From Pseudorhodoferax aquiterrae (GTDB taxonomy: Bacteria; Pseudomonadota; Gammaproteobacteria; Burkholderiales; Burkholderiaceae_C): DNA of 64,000 nucleotides. Positions 44,010-51,425 of this stretch are shown here, in pieces. A program made the position numbers and the translations under genes. Under the pieces are notes generated by a model. The model worked only from the letters and a program-made list of their open reading frames with translations, was not told where the DNA came from and made no database searches. The stretch covers positions 1-64,000 of the forward strand of contig NZ_BMYK01000017.1 of the NCBI RefSeq assembly GCF_014652235.1. Reading direction: 5' to 3'. Position 1 is the stretch's first letter, and every line of letters starts with the position of its first letter.

Positions 44010-45152
44010 ATGGCCTCCTGGATCTCGATGGACGAAGCCTGCCGCCAGCTCGGCGTGCGCGCGCAGACCGTGTACGCCTACGTGAGCCGCGGCAAGCTGG
44101 AGGTCATGCCCGACCCGGCCGACACGCGGCGCAGCCTGTACCGCGCCGAGCATGTGGCGGCCCTGGCCAAGCGCAAGCAGGCCGGCCGCAAGCACGAGAC
44201 GCTGGCCACCAACACCTTGTTCGGTGCCGAGCCCAGCATTCCCACGGCGCTGACGGCCTTCTTCAAGGGGCGGCCGCACTACCGCGGGCGCGACGCGGTG
44301 GCGCTGGCCGAATCGGCCACGCTGGAAGAGGCCGCACAGTGGATGTGGGAGGCCGAGCAGCCGGTGGACTTCGCTTCGGTCGGGGGCAAGCCCGCCGGCC
44401 CGGCCGGCCGCGCTGCCGCGTTCACGGCACTGGCACAGCTGGCCGCCTCGGGTCACTCCACGCGCGGGCGCCTCACGCGCGTGCTGCACCAGGAAGGGCA
44501 GGGCCTCGTGGGCCTGGTGGCCGATGCCTTCGGCGCCGCGCCGGGCAAGGGGCCGTTGCATGAGCGCCTGGCGCGCGGCTGGAAGCAGCCGCCGGCCGTG
44601 GCCGGGCTGCTGCGCACGGCCCTGGTGCTGCTGCTGGACCACGAGCTCACAAGCTCGGCCTTCGCGGCGCGCATCGCTTCGTCCAACGGCGCCTCGCTGC
44701 CGGCCTGTTTGCTCGCCGGGCTCACCACGCTGTCAGGCCCGCTGCACGGCGACGCCTCGGGCCGCGTGCGTGCGCTGTTCGCCGAGGTCGAGCGCCTGGG
44801 CGAGGAGCAGGTGCTGGCGCACTACCTGTCGACGGGCCAGCCCTTCGCAGGCTTCGGCCACTTCCTGTACCCGGACGGCGACCCGCGCGCGGCGGCCCTG
44901 CTGGCGCGCTTCGAGGCGCCGCCCGTGATCGCGCGCTTCATCGAACGCGTGACTGCGCTGACGGGCCTGCGGCCCAATGTGGACGTGGCGCTGGCCGCGC
45001 TGGTCGCGCACCACGGCCTGCCGCCCGATGCCGCCTTCGGCATCATGGCCACGGCGCGCAGCGTGGGGCTGCTGGCGCACAGCATCGAACAGCTGGGCGT
45101 GACGCAGGTGATCCGTCCGCGCGGGCGTTATGTGGGCGCCCTACCGGCGTGA
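44010..45152 (+). CDS. Citrate-synthase-family protein with N-terminal helix-turn-helix
   Basis: A 380-residue protein in two parts. Residues 1-60 are a MerR/excisionase-type DNA-binding domain (MASWISMDEACRQLGVRAQTVYAYVSRGKLEVMPDP, then RRSLYRAEHVAAL). Residues about 70-380 are a citrate synthase fold with the catalytic His in LLDHELTSSAF, PLHGDASGRV, GFGHFLYPDGDPR and the catalytic Asp region NVDVALAAL. Citrate synthases condense acetyl-CoA or a similar acyl-CoA with a 2-keto acid. The joined DNA-binding domain suggests a metabolite-sensing regulator or a regulated enzyme. It faces the carboxylate operon across AT-rich repeats. Confidence 0.88.
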   Translation: MASWISMDEACRQLGVRAQTVYAYVSRGKLEVMPDPADTRRSLYRAEHVAALAKRKQAGRKHETLATNTLFGAEPSIPTALTAFFKGRPHYRGRDAVALAESATLEEAAQWMWEAEQPVDFASVGGKPAGPAGRAAAFTALAQLAASGHSTRGRLTRVLHQEGQGLVGLVADAFGAAPGKGPLHERLARGWKQPPAVAGLLRTALVLLLDHELTSSAFAARIASSNGASLPACLLAGLTTLSGPLHGDASGRVRALFAEVERLGEEQVLAHYLSTGQPFAGFGHFLYPDGDPRAAALLARFEAPPVIARFIERVTALTGLRPNVDVALAALVAHHGLPPDAAFGIMATARSVGLLAHSIEQLGVTQVIRPRGRYVGALPA

Positions 45153-45155
45153 ATT

Positions 45156-45467
45156 TCAGTGGTAGTCGTCCTCGCGCTGGTGGCGGATGGCCGAGACGAG
45201 CACGAGGCTGTCGCTCTCGATGTGGAACAGGGCCACATACCCCGTGGCACCGAAGGGGATGACCAGTTCCCGCTCCAGCGGATCCTCCCAGGCCATGCGA
45301 CAGGTGAACGGGTTGCGCTGGAGAATGCGGAACTCTTCCTGGATGGCGTCCATGGCCCTGTCGGGCAGGTCGACATCGCCGTGCTGCAGTGCCTGGTCGA
45401 TCAGAAAGTCTTCGAGGCGCTGCAAATCCGCCAGCGCTTCAGCCGTCAGACGGACGATGTAACGCAC
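45156..45467 (-). CDS. RelE/ParE-family toxin
   Basis: A 103-residue toxin of the RelE/ParE fold. Pattern: MRYIVRLTAEALADLQRLEDFLIDQA at the start, a central RMAWEDPLERELVIPFG strand, and YVALFHIESDSLVLVSAIRHQREDDYH at the end; the terminal RHQREDDY is typical of ParE-type gyrase-targeting or RelE-type toxins. The GTG at 45467 begins the conserved fold 19 bases after the antitoxin stop; a TTG at 45509 inside the antitoxin gene would add a non-homologous leader. Convergent with the citrate-synthase-like gene. Confidence 0.85.
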   Translation of the reverse strand: MRYIVRLTAEALADLQRLEDFLIDQALQHGDVDLPDRAMDAIQEEFRILQRNPFTCRMAWEDPLERELVIPFGATGYVALFHIESDSLVLVSAIRHQREDDYH

Positions 45468-45486
45468 GGCAGCTTGCGGTGGTAAC

Positions 45487-45762
45487 TCAGGTTTTTCGCA
45501 GGGCCGCAATGCGTGCGTTCAGCCGCTCGCGCATGGCGGAAAGCGCGTCTTCCGCAGCGTACAGCTCGCCCGTCTTGCGGGCCTTGGCCAACGACGCACG
45601 GCCGCGCGCGATGAACGCCTGTTGGGCCTGGCGCCGACGTGCCGCGTCCAGCGTGGCTTTCTCGACGAACTGCGTGAGGGATTCGCCCTCGTGCAGCACG
45701 CGTTCAATCTCCTCGCGCACCGCAGGCGTGACCCGCACAGGGGGAAGTTGAGCGGTTTTCAT
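45487..45762 (-). CDS. Antitoxin, ribbon-helix-helix type
   Basis: A 91-residue protein. The N-terminal strand-helix-helix (QLPPVRVTPAVREEIERVLHEGESLTQFVEKAT) is a ribbon-helix-helix DNA-binding domain; the C-terminal half is a charged helix (EDALSAMRERLNARIAAL) that would wrap the toxin. It precedes the toxin in the operon, the normal order. The palindrome 12-25 bases upstream of the ATG is its likely operator, so the pair should self-repress. Confidence 0.82.
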   Translation of the reverse strand: MKTAQLPPVRVTPAVREEIERVLHEGESLTQFVEKATLDAARRRQAQQAFIARGRASLAKARKTGELYAAEDALSAMRERLNARIAALRKT

Positions 45763-45821: not shown

Positions 45822-47036
45822 TCAGCCCCCGACGTTGCATTCCCGCCGCAGCAGCGCCAGCGCGTCCGCCGTGGCATGCACCTGGTCGCTGCGCAGCACG
45901 GGCTCGGCTTCGGCGATGAAGGCATTCCACAGCTGCAGGTAGTCGCCGCGCAGATCTGCGGGCGCATGCTCGGCGATGAACCGGCGCGGCAGGTCGGCAT
46001 CGAGCCCCGACTTCTGGATCTTCTTGACCAGGGCCAGCGCGGTCTTCTCGCTGATCAGCGTGGCGTGCCTGCCGCCCGTGGCGATGCGCAGGAACAGCGT
46101 CAGCAGCGCGCTGTCGTCGCCGTGGCCCTCGGTGGCCTTGTCCCACACGGCGCTGGTGCTGCGGGCGTGGTGCTCGATCTCGGCCAGCGGGTCCTCGGAC
46201 CAGAAGTAGCGGCCCAGAAAGGCCGGCGTCTGGTCGAACAGCCTGCGCACGCCGACCGAGGCGTCGAGGATCCGGGGCAGGTCCTGCACGATGGAGTCCA
46301 GCACGGACCGAACGACCGCAGCATAGGGGGCCGGCAGGTCGCTGGGCGGGCCCAGGGGCACCTGGGCCGGCGCCGCGTACTTCTTGCGCAGGCCCTGCAC
46401 CATCTTCTCGAAGGCGGGCCAGTCCGGCATGGCATTGCGCCGGCAGGCGCGCACGAGCAGGGCGGTGCGCAGCACGGCCTCGGCATCCTTGCCGGCGTCT
46501 TCCAGGTCGTCGGCGTCCAGCCCGAACTGCGCGGCCATCCAGACGGCGGCCTCCACCAGCGTCGCGGCATGGCTGCGCGCGGCACGCTCGGCCTGGACCT
46601 CGGTCAGGCTGCGCAGCGACCACTTGGCCAGCAAGGGGATGTGCTTGTCCTCGAAGACGCGCTCTTCCTGCATGCCGAAGTGGCTGCTCTGCGGCATCAC
46701 GATCAGCGCCTTGAGCATGTCCGAGCCGCCCTTGGAGCGCGACAGCAGGCTGTGGTCGCGCAGGGACTGGGCCGCGCGGTCCAGGTCGCCGTCGCAGGAA
46801 TCCTCCAGGTACAGGCTCACGAGGTTGACCAGGCGCGTGCGCGCCAGTTCCAGGTCGGGCCGCAGGTATTCCGTGCCGAAGTAGCGCGCGATCTGCACCA
46901 TGCCCTTGGGCGCCTCCTGGCACATCGCGGCCAGCTTCTCGGGCACGAGGATGCCGTGGCGCACGCCATGCTGCAGCGCCCTCTCGAAGAAGGGGCGCTC
47001 GTCGAACAGCGCGATGGCTTGGGCAGCCTGTTCCAT
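45822..47036 (-). CDS. Conserved hypothetical protein, 404 residues (J-domain operon)
   Basis: I do not recognise a family. The protein is soluble and mainly helical, with no signal peptide or membrane segment. Landmarks: FERALQHGVRHGILVPEKLAAMC near the start, a QSSHFGMQEERVFEDKHIPLLAKWSLRSLTE stretch in the middle, CRRNAMPDWP and a helical C-terminus ending RRECNVGG. Its ATG overlaps the stop of the upstream gene (ATGA, 47033-47036). Last gene of a four-gene operon headed by a J-domain protein. Role unknown; it may be a client or regulator of the chaperone. Confidence 0.75.
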   Translation of the reverse strand: MEQAAQAIALFDERPFFERALQHGVRHGILVPEKLAAMCQEAPKGMVQIARYFGTEYLRPDLELARTRLVNLVSLYLEDSCDGDLDRAAQSLRDHSLLSRSKGGSDMLKALIVMPQSSHFGMQEERVFEDKHIPLLAKWSLRSLTEVQAERAARSHAATLVEAAVWMAAQFGLDADDLEDAGKDAEAVLRTALLVRACRRNAMPDWPAFEKMVQGLRKKYAAPAQVPLGPPSDLPAPYAAVVRSVLDSIVQDLPRILDASVGVRRLFDQTPAFLGRYFWSEDPLAEIEHHARSTSAVWDKATEGHGDDSALLTLFLRIATGGRHATLISEKTALALVKKIQKSGLDADLPRRFIAEHAPADLRGDYLQLWNAFIAEAEPVLRSDQVHATADALALLRRECNVGG

Positions 47037-47785
47037 CAGATCGCGGACTCTTCGTCGTCCTCGCGCGCGGCGGGGGTGCTGCGGCCGCGGTCGGTGTCCT
47101 TGGTTTCCACGCGCGCGTCCTCGTCGCCGGCCTCTTCCTCGTCCTCGGTGCCCAGGTGGTGGGCGCGCGCCTGGGCGCGCAGCACCAGCAGCATCTCGGT
47201 GAACAGGTCGGGGCACTCGTAGCGCATCAGCCAGGCCAGTTCCATCCAGTCCTGGTCGGCCACTTCCTCGCGCTCGACGCGCGGGCTGGCGTAGGCCGAT
47301 CCCAGCAGCGCCTGCTCGGACAGCATCTCGCCGTCTTCCTCCACGGTGTCGAAGGTGCCGGTGCGCGCGAAGGCTTCGATGCGGGCCCACTTCTCGGCGA
47401 AGTAGTTGGCCATGGCCTCGCTGCCGCCTTCCAGGTCGCCCACGGCGGTCAGGAAGGCGACGGGGTCGGCGTCCTCGCGGAAGACGATGGAGTTCACCAT
47501 GCCGCGCAGGTGCGTGTGCGTGAGGTCCTTGTAGCGCTTCTCGATGACGATGGCGCGCGCGAACTGCTCGGGCGTGACCAGCAGGTTCACGACCGATTCG
47601 CGCGAGGGGTCGTACTCGCGCATGATGGCCAGCACGTCCTTGGGCGCGAGCTCGTCCAGCACCACCATCAACGCGCGGTCGCCCTCGGCGTCGGCCAGCT
47701 CGGTGAGGGCCGATTCGGCGCCGGCGATGTCGCCTGCGGCGATCAGGCTCTGGGTTTTCTCGATCAGGGCGAGGTGGTTGCTCAT
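47036..47785 (-). CDS. Conserved hypothetical protein, 249 residues (J-domain operon)
   Basis: Family not recognised. The N-terminal half is helical repeat-like (LIAAGDIAGAESALTELADAEGDRALMVVLDELAPKDVLAIMREYD), resembling paired helices of TPR or HEAT type by composition. The centre has EGGSEAMANYFAEKWARIEAF, and the C-terminal 45 residues are highly acidic and disordered (EDEEEAGDED...). No signal peptide. It starts one base after the previous gene's stop and overlaps the next start. Likely part of one protein complex with its neighbours. Confidence 0.75.
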   Translation of the reverse strand: MSNHLALIEKTQSLIAAGDIAGAESALTELADAEGDRALMVVLDELAPKDVLAIMREYDPSRESVVNLLVTPEQFARAIVIEKRYKDLTHTHLRGMVNSIVFREDADPVAFLTAVGDLEGGSEAMANYFAEKWARIEAFARTGTFDTVEEDGEMLSEQALLGSAYASPRVEREEVADQDWMELAWLMRYECPDLFTEMLLVLRAQARAHHLGTEDEEEAGDEDARVETKDTDRGRSTPAAREDDEESAI

Positions 47786-47786
47786 G

Positions 47787-48362
47787 TCACTCCTTGCGGT
47801 CGAAGCCTTGCTCGGCCATCCAGTCGGCGCGCGCGTCTTCGCGGGTCTGGGCGTCGGCATCGTCCAGGTCGTCGGCCGAGAGGGGCTGGCGTTCTTCGTC
47901 GTCGCGGTCGTCGTCGTGCTCGGCATCCACGTCGTCCGCGTCGTCGCCCTGGTCCGCGCCACCGGCGGCCTGCCGGGTGCTCCCCACCATGTATTCCAGC
48001 GCGGCGGCCACGCTGAGGAAGTTGTCGCCGGCCGGGTGCTTGCGCAGCTGCTGCACCGTGGCCTGCGCCCAGGGGGCGATCACGATGTTCTGCTGCAGGC
48101 TGTCCCAGGCGGTCAGGTTGCCGGCTTCGCAGGCCAGCAGGCGCTCCATGGCCGGGCCGGAGCGGAACTGGAAGGCCTTGTGCAGCACCACGGCCACCAT
48201 CTCGGGGCTCAGCTCGAGCATGGCGACCAGGAAGCCGATTTCCTTGCGCCGTTCGGCCAGCCGCCGGTCCAGCACATTGGCGCCCTCGGAGTCCTGGCGC
48301 ATGTCGTCGAGTTCGGCCAGGTAGGCGGTGCGCAGGTTGCGGAAGAAAGGAGAAACGTGCAT
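47787..48362 (-). CDS. Conserved hypothetical protein, 191 residues (J-domain operon)
   Basis: Family not recognised. A helical N-terminal region (FFRNLRTAYLAELDDMRQDSEGANVLDRRLAERRKEIGFL) is followed by a compact domain with AFQFRSGPAMERLLACEAGNLTAWDSLQQNIVIAP. The C-terminal 60 residues are extremely acidic, with long Asp/Glu runs (about 137-180), a composition seen in chaperone-binding or histone-mimic tails. It lies 5 bases after the J-domain gene. Acidic tails recur in the next gene of the operon. Confidence 0.75.
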   Translation of the reverse strand: MHVSPFFRNLRTAYLAELDDMRQDSEGANVLDRRLAERRKEIGFLVAMLELSPEMVAVVLHKAFQFRSGPAMERLLACEAGNLTAWDSLQQNIVIAPWAQATVQQLRKHPAGDNFLSVAAALEYMVGSTRQAAGGADQGDDADDVDAEHDDDRDDEERQPLSADDLDDADAQTREDARADWMAEQGFDRKE

Positions 48363-48367
48363 CGGGG

Positions 48368-48643
48368 CTAAATGAGCTTCTGGAAATACTCTGCCCAGAT
48401 CCCACGCGCCGTTTCCAGCGGGTCGTCGAGCAGGTTGCGCTTGCGGTTGTTGTCGTAGGCCTCGCGCCTGGCCTCGTCGCCCAGCACCTCGTAGGCCTCC
48501 TGGACGGCGCGGAACCGCGCGGCGGCATCGGGTGCGGTGCTGCGGTCCGGGTGGTGCAGGGCGGCCTGGTGGCGGTAGGCCTTCTTGATGTCCGCCAGGC
48601 TCGCGCCAGGGCTGACACCCAGGGCGAGATAGTGGTCTTGCAT
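48368..48643 (-). CDS. Single J-domain (DnaJ-like) protein
   Basis: A 91-residue protein consisting of the J-domain only: YLALGVSPGASLADIKKAYRHQAALHHPDRS with the catalytic H31-P32-D33, then AVQEAYEVLGDEARREAYD of helices III-IV, and a short tail (LLDDPLETARGIWAEYFQKLI). The HPD motif stimulates the ATPase of an Hsp70 (DnaK), so the protein would recruit DnaK to a specific client. It lacks the G/F region and zinc finger of DnaJ. First gene of the operon; the three unknown genes downstream are natural candidates for clients. Confidence 0.9.
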   Translation of the reverse strand: MQDHYLALGVSPGASLADIKKAYRHQAALHHPDRSTAPDAAARFRAVQEAYEVLGDEARREAYDNNRKRNLLDDPLETARGIWAEYFQKLI

Positions 48644-48806: not shown

Positions 48807-49130
48807 ATGGACGAAACCGATGCCGTGCAATCCCTCGCAGCCCTGGCCCATGGCATGCGCTTGCGCGTGTTCCGCGCCCTGGTGGTGGCGGGCGCCGATG
48901 GCCTGGTGCCGGGCGCACTGGCCGGGCAGTTGCAGGTGGCGCCCAACGCACTGTCGTTCCACCTCAAGGAGCTGAGCCACGCCGGCCTGGTGACGCAGGA
49001 GCGCCAGGGCCGCAACCTGGTCTACCGCGCTTCGTTCGAGACCATGAACGGCTTGCTGGCCTACCTCACCGACAACTGCTGCGAGGGGGCGGCCTGCGCC
49101 GTCACCGAAGCGGCGCCTTGCCGCTGCTGA
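48807..49130 (+). CDS. arsR: ArsR-family As(III)-responsive repressor
   Basis: A 107-residue winged-helix repressor. The DNA-recognition region is VAPNALSFHLKELSHAGLVTQERQGRNLVYRASF. The arsenite site is C-terminal: C91, C92 and C97, plus C105 and C107, close to the Acidithiobacillus-type ArsR (C95/C96/C102) and unlike E. coli ArsR, which uses a CVC in a helix. It represses the operon until As(III) binds. The ATG at 48807 fits the fold; an out-of-frame ATG at 48803 is ignored. An operator palindrome lies directly upstream. Confidence 0.93.
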   Translation: MDETDAVQSLAALAHGMRLRVFRALVVAGADGLVPGALAGQLQVAPNALSFHLKELSHAGLVTQERQGRNLVYRASFETMNGLLAYLTDNCCEGAACAVTEAAPCRC

Positions 49131-49152
49131 GCAACCAAGCACCGACCACGCC

Positions 49153-49650
49153 ATGACCACCCCTCCTGCCCTGAACGTGCTGTTCATCTGCACCGGCAAC
49201 TCGGCCCGCTCCATCCTGGCCGAAGCCATGCTCAACCAGCTCGGCCGCGGGCACTTCCGCGCCTTCTCGGCCGGCAGCCAGCCCAGGGGCCGCGTGCATC
49301 CGCTGGCGCTGCAGACGCTGCGCCACCTGCATTTCGACGACACCGGCTTGTCCAGCAAGAGCTGGGGCGTGTTCGCCGAGCCCGATGCGCCGCGCATGGA
49401 CTTCGTGATCACGGTCTGCGACCAGGCCGCCGGTGAGGTCTGTCCGGTGTGGCCAGGCCAACCGATCACGGCGCACTGGGGTGTGGCCGATCCGGCTGCG
49501 GTGGAAGGCTCGGACGATGCGAAGCGGCATGCCTTCTTGGACATGGCCGTCACGCTCAAGCGACGCACCGAGTTCCTGCTGGCGCTGCCGCTGGCCAAGC
49601 TGGAGACGCTGGCCATCCAGCGCGAAGTGCGCGACATCGGAAAACGTTGA
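49153..49650 (+). CDS. Arsenate reductase, low-molecular-weight phosphatase type (first copy)
   Basis: A 165-residue LMW-PTP-like enzyme. The catalytic P-loop is CTGNSARS near residue 13, followed by SSKSWGVFA and VITVCDQAAGEVCPVWPG, which supplies the further cysteines for the disulfide relay used with thioredoxin or mycothiol-type donors. It reduces arsenate to arsenite. First of three reductases in the operon; the tail after HWGVADPA is longer than in the second copy. Confidence 0.88.
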   Translation: MTTPPALNVLFICTGNSARSILAEAMLNQLGRGHFRAFSAGSQPRGRVHPLALQTLRHLHFDDTGLSSKSWGVFAEPDAPRMDFVITVCDQAAGEVCPVWPGQPITAHWGVADPAAVEGSDDAKRHAFLDMAVTLKRRTEFLLALPLAKLETLAIQREVRDIGKR

Positions 49651-49651
49651 G

Positions 49652-50137
49652 ATGACGACGAACATCCTGATCCTGTGCACCCACAACTCCGCGCGCAGCG
49701 TGCTGGCCGAAGGCATGCTCAACCACTGGGCGCGGCAGCTGGGTGCCGACCTGCGCGCCCACAGCGCCGGCAGCGCCCCCAGCGGGCGCATCAACCCGCT
49801 GGCCACCGAGGTGCTGCAGGCCGCGGGCATCGACACCGCCGGCCACCGCAGCAAGAGCTGGGACGAATTCACCGGCGATGCCGCGCCGCGCATGCGCGTG
49901 GTGATCACCGTGTGCGACAGCGCGGCCAACGAGACCTGTCCGTACTGGCCTGGGTCGCCGGTGCAGGTCCACTGGGGCTACCCGGATCCGTCGAACGCCG
50001 GCAGCAACGCCGACGAGAAGCGCGCCGCCTTCGAGGCCACGCGCCGGGCCATCGGTGAACGCATGCGCGCACTGGCGCAGCTGCCGTTCGACACGCTGGA
50101 CGACGCGCAGCTGCGCGCCGCGCTGCAACGCCTCTGA
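49652..50137 (+). CDS. Arsenate reductase, low-molecular-weight phosphatase type (second copy)
   Basis: A 161-residue paralogue of the preceding gene. P-loop CTHNSARS, then HRSKSWDEF and VITVCDSAANETCPYWPGSPVQVHWGYPDPS. By eye it shares the fold and cysteine pattern but many other residues differ, so the two are not a recent duplication. The start is one base after the previous stop. It would work with a different reductant partner or at different arsenate levels. Confidence 0.88.
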   Translation: MTTNILILCTHNSARSVLAEGMLNHWARQLGADLRAHSAGSAPSGRINPLATEVLQAAGIDTAGHRSKSWDEFTGDAAPRMRVVITVCDSAANETCPYWPGSPVQVHWGYPDPSNAGSNADEKRAAFEATRRAIGERMRALAQLPFDTLDDAQLRAALQRL

Positions 50138-50212
50138 ACCTTCTTCGGCCGGCCTGCCGTGGCGCCGCCACGGCGGCCGTCCTGCGCCACGTCATCTTCT
50201 TCGCCACGCACC

Positions 50213-51425
50213 ATGCCCGCTGCCATCCTCATCTTCCTGTTCACGCTGGTGCTCGTCATCTGGCAGCCGCGCGGGCTGGGCATCGGCTGGAGCGCCTCGC
50301 TCGGCGCCGTGCTCGCGCTGCTGTTCGGCGTGGTGCAGCTGGCCGACATCCCGGTGGTCTGGCGGATCGTCTGGAACGCCACCGCCACCTTCGTGGCCGT
50401 GATCGTCATCAGCCTGCTGCTGGACGAGGCCGGCTTCTTCGAATGGGCCGCACTGCACGTGGCGCGCTGGGGTGGCGGGCGCGGCACGCGGCTGTTCGCC
50501 TTCATCGTGTTGCTGGGCGCGGCCGTGGCGGCGCTGTTCGCCAACGATGGCGCGGCGCTGATCCTCACGCCCATCGTGATGGCCATGCTGGTGGCGCTGG
50601 GCTTCTCGCCGGCCGCCCAACATCGTCTCGGCCGACTTCTTCCGTCTGGGCTTCACGCAGTACGCGGCCGTGATGGTGCCGGTCGACATCGCCGCCGTGC
50701 TGGCCAGCCTGCTGGTGCTGCTGCTGTACTTCCGGCGCAGCATTCCGGCCAGCTACGACATGGCGCAGCTGAAAGCGCCAGCCGCCGCGATCCGCGATGC
50801 GGCCACCTTCCGCGCCGGCTGGGTGGTGCTGGTGCTGCTGCTGGTGGGCTTCTTCGGTCTGGAGCCGCTGGGCGTGCCGGTCAGCGCGGTGGCGGCGGGG
50901 GGCGCGGTGCTGCTGCTGGCGGTGGCGGGCAGGGGCCGTGTCATCAGCACGCGCCGTGTGCTGCACGGTGCGCCCTGGCAGATCGTGGTGTTCTCGCTGG
51001 GCATGTACCTGGTGGTCTACGGCCTGCGCAACGCCGGGCTGACGGACCGCATCGCCACGCTGCTGGACTGGTTCGCGCAGGGCGGCGTCTGGGGCGCGGC
51101 GCTGGGTACGGGCGTGCTCACGGCGCTGCTGTCCTCGGTCATGAACAACATGCCCACGGTGCTGATCGGCGCGCTGTCCATCGACGCCTCGCAGGCCAGC
51201 GGCGTGGTGAAGGAGGCCATGGTCTACGCCAATGTGATCGGCTGCGACCTGGGCCCCAAGATCACGCCCATCGGCAGCCTGGCCACGCTGCTGTGGCTGC
51301 ACGTGCTGCAGAAGAAGGGCACGACCATCGCCTGGGGCGACTACTTCCGCGTGGGCATCGTGCTGACGCTGCCCGTGCTGCTGGTGACGCTGGCCGCTCT
51401 GGCACTGCGCCTCAGCCTGGCCTGA
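50213..51425 (+). pseudogene. arsB: ArsB-type arsenite efflux permease, internal deletion and frameshift
   Basis: The first 133 residues (from 50213) match ArsB TM segments, ending [18 protein letters not shown]. The frame then breaks at 50606-50620. A different frame continues correctly with [27 protein letters not shown] and the rest of ArsB ([42 protein letters not shown]) to the stop at 51425. About 26-28 residues are missing between (family consensus ...[21 protein letters not shown]...). Total length would otherwise fit ArsB (about 430). The gap plus shift implies a loss of about 77-83 bases, so no functional pump is made unless this is an assembly error. Confidence 0.85.

Follow-up and report, generated by a model that had tools for sequence, protein, structure and literature searches.

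The stretch of DNA analysed here, referred to as the window, comprises 64,000 nt from Pseudorhodoferax aquiterrae (contig NZ_BMYK01000017.1), whose genome measures 7.1 Mb. On the minus strand it carries four co-directional open reading frames (ORFs) encoding proteins of 91, 191, 249 and 404 residues, with 5 nt between the first and the second, 1 nt between the second and the third and an overlap of 1 nt between the third and the fourth (Table 1). A preliminary description of this DNA had presented them as a four-gene operon in which a J-domain protein with an intact HPD motif precedes three unrecognised proteins, two of them with acidic tails. A check of the ORFs returned the same lengths and spacing, and Pfam assigns residues 3–64 of the first protein, HPD included, to the DnaJ family PF00226 (E = 8.1e-22). 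The acidic tails are likewise evident: the last 60 residues of the second protein include 25 Asp/Glu and 6 Lys/Arg, and the last 45 of the third include 16 and 6. The partners, on the other hand, did not stay unrecognised, as profile–profile comparison identifies them as homologues of the described proteins AtcA, AtcB and AtcC. The operon is very probably a strongly diverged Burkholderiales branch of atcJABC, homologous in all four genes.

Table 1. Coordinates of the atcJABC-like genes and of features within them
Feature	Position in window	Strand	Basis
atcJ-like gene, 91 residues: J-domain and C-terminal extension	48368..48643	-	Pfam DnaJ, NCBIfam AtcJ NF050028
HPD motif, residues 31–33, DnaK-stimulating tripeptide	48545..48553	-	in 61/61 rows
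P-x7-W motif, PLETARGIW, residues 75–83; predicted AtcC-docking segment	48395..48421	-	61/61 rows
atcA-like gene, 191 residues	47787..48362	-	NCBIfam AtcA 4.4e-4; profile–profile 3.9e-9
AtcA-like acidic tail, last 60 residues, GFDRKE end	47790..47969	-	Asp/Glu against Lys/Arg count
atcB-like gene, 249 residues	47036..47785	-	profile–profile with gamma AtcB 1.8e-6
AtcB-like acidic tail, last 45 residues	47039..47173	-	Asp/Glu against Lys/Arg count, low model confidence
DEESAI end of AtcB-like tail	47039-47056	-	kept in 52/55 distinct close beta rows
atcC-like gene, 404 residues	45822..47036	-	profile–profile with gamma and short Burkholderiales AtcC
AtcC C-terminal extension, ~residues 295–404, boundary approximate	45825..46154	-	lengths, alignment ranges

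The J-protein and its C-terminal extension

PF00226 is the only Pfam match of the J-protein. The chain stops at residue 91, and the G/F (Gly/Phe) region and substrate-binding C-terminal domains of class A or B J-proteins (DnaJ/CbpA) are absent. The protein had been taken for a J-domain and nothing more; the J-domain is there, but the last ~27 residues lie past it and form a conserved extension with a motif of its own, P-x7-W. This motif, reportedly the AtcJ signature (Weber et al. 2023), is found in 61 of 61 rows compared (59 distinct, 4 of them gamma-type), as against a mean of ~3.5% when each tail is shuffled, and it is kept in all 55 distinct close beta rows.

The NCBIfam AtcJ model (NF050028) aligns with the protein over model positions 1–93 with an E-value of 7.5e-14 and a score of 52 bits, the cut-off being 150. 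Four matches to this model occur in the P. aquiterrae genome; only that in the window covers positions 1–93, the others ending by position 69. Judged by its sequence, the J-protein is of the AtcJ type, short, with HPD and a P-x7-W extension, and by analogy with the Shewanella oneidensis protein (see below) its tail is predicted to be the segment that docks onto AtcC. Full-length Hsp70 genes are present in the same genome, one of them adjoining a DnaJ match.

Comparison of the partner proteins with AtcA, AtcB and AtcC

No Pfam family was found above threshold for any of the three partner proteins. The first lead came from NCBIfam, where the AtcA model matched the 191-residue protein (4.4e-4) and the AtcC model, very weakly, the 404-residue protein (0.2). 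Among ten alignment members, the window included, eight are matched by the AtcA model at E ≤ 1 (best 2.3e-4) and three by the AtcC model (best 2.4e-4). The equivalog models used (NF050028, NF047888, NF047889 and NF047890) represent narrow Shewanella-type families, and the scores of the window proteins lie far under the curated cut-offs (52 of 150 bits for J, 20.1 of 200 for A, 11.1 of 370 for C and no match for B), so the matches were taken as a lead and not as a result. With all four proteins under these cut-offs, automatic annotation would leave them unnamed; the distance of the branch from the curated models also explains why the partners were not seen in the preliminary description, which had proposed a remote-homology search.

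That search was run, and it is on its outcome that the assignment to AtcA, AtcB and AtcC is based. Gamma-type operons obtained by searching the phylum with the AtcC model served as intermediates; they are labelled Atc-type by score, not as Shewanella. In the four operons concerned (L050–L053), J, A, B and C lie in this order on one strand in every case, and L050 was the positive control, passing four of four NCBIfam Atc cut-offs. Profiles of 61–67 beta sequences, the largest set, were compared with those of the 4 gamma sequences, each E-value referring to a single comparison. Matching genes gave 6e-25 for J, 3.9e-9 for A, 1.8e-6 for B and 2.4e-7 for C, whereas the 12 mismatched pairs gave values of 0.082–0.64. 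The same diagonal was obtained with two smaller beta sets (A 1.5e-7 and 4e-8, B 7.1e-5 and 5.6e-5, C 2.5e-7 and 4.8e-7), where the lowest mismatched pairs were at 0.018 and 0.03. Rows of 380 residues or fewer (L078 and L093, cut by contig ends) were excluded from the C profiles, and the larger profile was also built without L106 and L110. The match to gamma AtcC extends over residues 8–171, and that to a short AtcC of other Burkholderiales over residues 46–270, at 5.7e-13.

This pattern bears on the proposal, the preliminary idea read strictly, that the partners are ordinary folding clients, or an unrelated complex, requiring a dedicated J-protein and having no relation to Atc. In its favour, no Pfam family lies above threshold for the three proteins or for the AtcC relatives searched, and AtcB has no match to its own model in NCBIfam. 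Each profile, however, matches only its positional counterpart in the Atc operon, and the P-x7-W tail is shared. The proposal is largely refuted by the profile–profile comparison, and we consider it very improbable.

Several observations weigh against an assignment to Atc or narrow its reach. None of the four window proteins attains its NCBIfam Atc cut-off, and the AtcB model matches none of the ten alignment members and nothing in the P. aquiterrae genome. The homology of AtcB, the weakest of the four, consists of a profile–profile alignment of ~105 residues (22–128), with a probability of 89.7 for the largest set and of 62.8 and 66.1 for the smaller ones. AtcC can be aligned in its first ~270 residues only, ~110 residues being extra. 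The window J-protein scores higher with general DnaJ models than with the AtcJ model; in the genome search with the latter, a larger DnaJ-type ORF reached 59 bits to its 50.5, and matches are obtained in 12 of 14 control genomes, so that the model alone is not specific. Of the 17 more distant operons from the order-level sample, 11 retain an exact P-x7-W motif; Ala replaces Pro in L116–L118, and Trp is lost in L106, L113 and L114. In the five operons with a short AtcC (L115–L119), finally, profile comparison gave a link for AtcA that is not significant (0.047 with the window branch, 0.014 with gamma), and one mismatched pair reached 0.011.

Structure prediction for the AtcB-like protein gave an all-helical model with a mean predicted local distance difference test (pLDDT) score of 67.7 and confidence below 50 at residues 213–249. 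Foldseek returned no match to this model at E ≤ 0.001. The best VIA-align rows are cytosolic domains of MgtE-type magnesium transporters, 2oux_B (Z 7.7, root-mean-square deviation (rmsd) 3.2, 124 aligned) and 2yvy (Z 7.4, rmsd 3.3, 116 aligned); the Z values are below the level advised for helical proteins, and no fold is claimed. For AtcC, the predicted structure has a mean pLDDT of 57.0 and a predicted template modelling score of 0.35. Sequence searches of the PDB revealed no credible relative, the best match, spectrin (AtcB profile, 0.007), being judged a chance helical one. Also set aside were matches of the AtcB-like protein to DUF5575_C (0.057, below cut-off), of two AtcC-like members to DUF6178 (0.047) and, as chance, of one AtcB member to the NCBIfam ClpXP specificity-enhancing factor (0.14).

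Conservation and lineage-specific features

The four genes occur in the same order and on one strand at nine of nine loci from the related-locus search. AtcB is present in 48 of 299 genomes of the window's family, representing 25 of 141 genera, and J, A and B stand in order on one strand in all 48, the gaps between genes ranging from -4 to 209 bases. C is there too in 47; in the remaining genome (L072), the contig ends after B. Contig ends also cut the C genes of L078, L093 and L096 (390 residues in L096), and the AtcB gene of G475 has one in-frame stop, one open piece of it being used. Rows L068 and L070 were set aside as duplicates of L003 and L002. No flanking ORF is shared by more than 9 of the 59 loci (blastp, 1e-12), and the four genes are thus the unit.

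Absence of the J gene from beside the partners in relatives had been put forward as an outcome that would speak against the system, and it was not encountered: J precedes A and B in every one of the 48 genomes. The idea that a stand-alone class C J-protein lies upstream by chance is refuted by the same genomes, in which the genes remain in order and co-directional while their flanks change; we give it practically no credence. We conclude that the four-gene system is real and conserved, and that it belongs to a described kind and not to a new one.

In an order-level sample AtcB was found in 19 of 300 genomes, two of them already counted. The 17 new operons have J and B in 17 cases and A and C in 16 each; L111 ends at a contig edge, the A gene of L118 is too weak to call, and those of L115–L117 were accepted by position, their matches being weak (0.009–0.2). 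An evenly drawn class sample yielded, with the AtcB profile, the P. aquiterrae genome alone (1 of 321), and the branch is therefore patchy. The AtcC model found nothing in 274 class genomes, P. aquiterrae included, so that it is blind to this branch; in 398 phylum genomes it matched five, three above cut-off, and of the weak matches one shares its family with a strong one (G962, G729) and one belongs to the window's family (G340). Searches for Enterobacterales with E. coli 16S (56 class genomes) and SeqA (80 class genomes) gave nothing usable, and a plasmid search with AtcB gave no match at E ≤ 0.01. Overall, AtcB is better conserved than the other three proteins, with 70–99% identity to nine relatives, though it is without an NCBIfam Atc match. 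The closest named relatives of the AtcC-like protein are those of Variovorax boronicumulans DE0202 (94%) and Pseudorhodoferax sp. Leaf265 (89%).

Where contig ends leave the gene whole, AtcC of close beta rows is 401–466 residues long, compared with 296–306 in gamma. Short AtcC proteins, of 286–300 residues, are encoded in operons L115–L119, and because the long AtcC matches the short form over residues 46–270, the extra ~110 residues are placed at the C-terminus. The ends of the acidic tails are also conserved. In AtcA, GF[DE]xK lies within the last 16 residues in each of the 55 distinct close beta rows. All 55 have EE[SQ]AI at the end of AtcB, 52 of them as DEESAI. In 12 more distant long-type operons, the AtcB ends are mostly EESAL or EESAI, with EELAI in L112, a different end in L114 and a cut in L111. 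The four gamma AtcB proteins end in D[DE]MF[SA] followed by two to three residues (for example, DDMFSFLD), and those of the short-AtcC operons in DIF[SA]. For the acidic tails of AtcA and AtcB, a role as flexible tethers bearing short docking motifs at their termini is probable. No description of the AtcC extension or of the AtcB terminus was found in the literature, no search having been aimed at those features. Operons L115–L119, with their short AtcC and DIF[SA] ending, constitute a second operon form in Burkholderiales.

As to the surroundings of the operon, a gene for a ParE-like toxin (1.5e-10) lies directly downstream at 45,156–45,762 on the minus strand; a small ORF overlaps it upstream, and a toxin–antitoxin pair is likely. 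On the plus strand at 44,010–45,152, a single ORF encodes a citrate synthase domain (7.9e-45) and, at its N-terminus, has a match to the helix-turn-helix family HTH_17 (8.3e-5, under its score cut-off), an apparent fusion of enzyme and DNA-binding segment. L002, L003, L004 and L007 also have an ORF resembling it downstream of the operon, the cluster of such ORFs numbering five loci, the fifth of which is perhaps the window. Divergent from atcJ, an arsenic-type cluster occupies 48,809–51,425 on the plus strand. It contains a small ORF that is ArsR-like by eye only, with no Pfam match at 1e-3, a pair of ORFs assigned to the low-molecular-weight phosphatase family, presumably ArsC-type, and an ORF at 50,670–51,425 matching positions 178–421 of the ArsB model, the preceding part of which is seemingly in another frame.

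Proposed function and comparison with known systems

In S. oneidensis, atcJABC, described as a cold-adaptation operon, corresponds to SO_1850, SO_1849, SO_1848 and SO_1846. According to the original account (PMC6715715), AtcJ stimulates DnaK and attaches to AtcC via its last 21 residues (7 nM), AtcC in turn binding AtcB. At 7 °C, growth is severely impaired in the absence of J, B or C, atcA being dispensable; atc expression is barely temperature-dependent. Contact between AtcB and RNA polymerase is reported in this species (PMC7871303).

We infer by analogy that the AtcJ–DnaK, AtcJ–AtcC and AtcC–AtcB contacts and the cold phenotype, known from S. oneidensis only, hold in P. aquiterrae. AtcJ would tie DnaK to AtcC–AtcB, AtcC would hold AtcB, and AtcB, assisted by AtcA in an accessory role, would carry the complex to where it acts. 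Given the AtcB–RNA polymerase contact reported in S. oneidensis, the most probable task would be to place DnaK at the transcription machinery, or at a partner of it, and so sustain growth in the cold. The preliminary description had envisaged a dedicated J-protein serving a client complex, and in kind this was right, given the three contacts known from S. oneidensis. Its client complex is less apt: the S. oneidensis authors (PMC6715715) consider AtcJ–AtcC binding too tight for the transient contact of a co-chaperone with its substrate, and the term adaptor chain fits better. A DnaK-targeting adaptor chain for cold growth is our best reading. That a diverged atcJABC branch acts here as a DnaK-targeting system is, as a whole, the best explanation and a likely one; a function in cold growth is favoured to a lesser degree, and RNA polymerase as the target is a tentative suggestion that we hold with some doubt.

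The AtcB terminus differs between gamma and this branch, which weighs on the other side, as the target could differ with it. The operon may thus be the same by descent and yet have been re-aimed in Burkholderiales, sending DnaK to another client with cold growth no longer the main phenotype. The lengthened AtcC and the DEESAI ending, set against the shorter AtcC and D[DE]MF[SA] type of gamma, would agree with such a change, and the S. oneidensis authors leave room for another atc role (PMC6715715). The retention of the J-A-B order in 48 of 48 genomes and of the AtcJ docking motif in 55 of 55 rows nevertheless argues that the core machine works in the same way, and we regard re-aiming as rather unlikely. 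It is also unlikely, in our estimation, that the AtcC extension and the DEESAI terminus form a docking module directing DnaK to a client other than that in Shewanella.

A four-gene system that lacks annotation in Burkholderiaceae (48 of 299 sampled genomes) is now placed in a described, poorly understood chaperone network. The diverged comparison set distinguishes parts that are kept, namely HPD, in most cases P-x7-W, the AtcC core and the N-terminal half of AtcB, from the lineage-specific AtcC extension and AtcB terminus. This makes the target to which AtcB and AtcC would deliver DnaK easier to test.

HscB, which is encoded with its partner IscU, is a dedicated class C J-protein, and the window operon resembles this pair in placing such a protein beside its partner. 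It differs in that HscB is not among the 14 NCBIfam matches of the J-protein (E up to 10) and that no Fe–S scaffold family is found among the three partners in Pfam or NCBIfam. The HscB–IscU pair is also drawn on for comparison by the S. oneidensis authors (PMC6715715). The resemblance to S. oneidensis atcJABC extends to the J-A-B-C order, to a short HPD-containing J-protein with a C-terminal extension (91 against ~94 residues), to the sizes of AtcA (~20 kDa) and AtcB (~29 kDa), which the window proteins approach, and to homology of AtcA, AtcB and AtcC by profile comparison with gamma-type operons. The differences lie in the sub-cut-off scores of all four sequences in NCBIfam, in the size of AtcC (404 residues as against 34 kDa) and in the C-terminus of AtcB. 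Weber et al. 2023 reportedly define, in environmental proteobacteria, an AtcJ subfamily of short J-proteins with PX7W, encoded in operons with atcA, atcB and atcC in beta- and gamma-proteobacteria, and with its PX7W J-protein and its atcABC-like genes the window operon agrees with that description.

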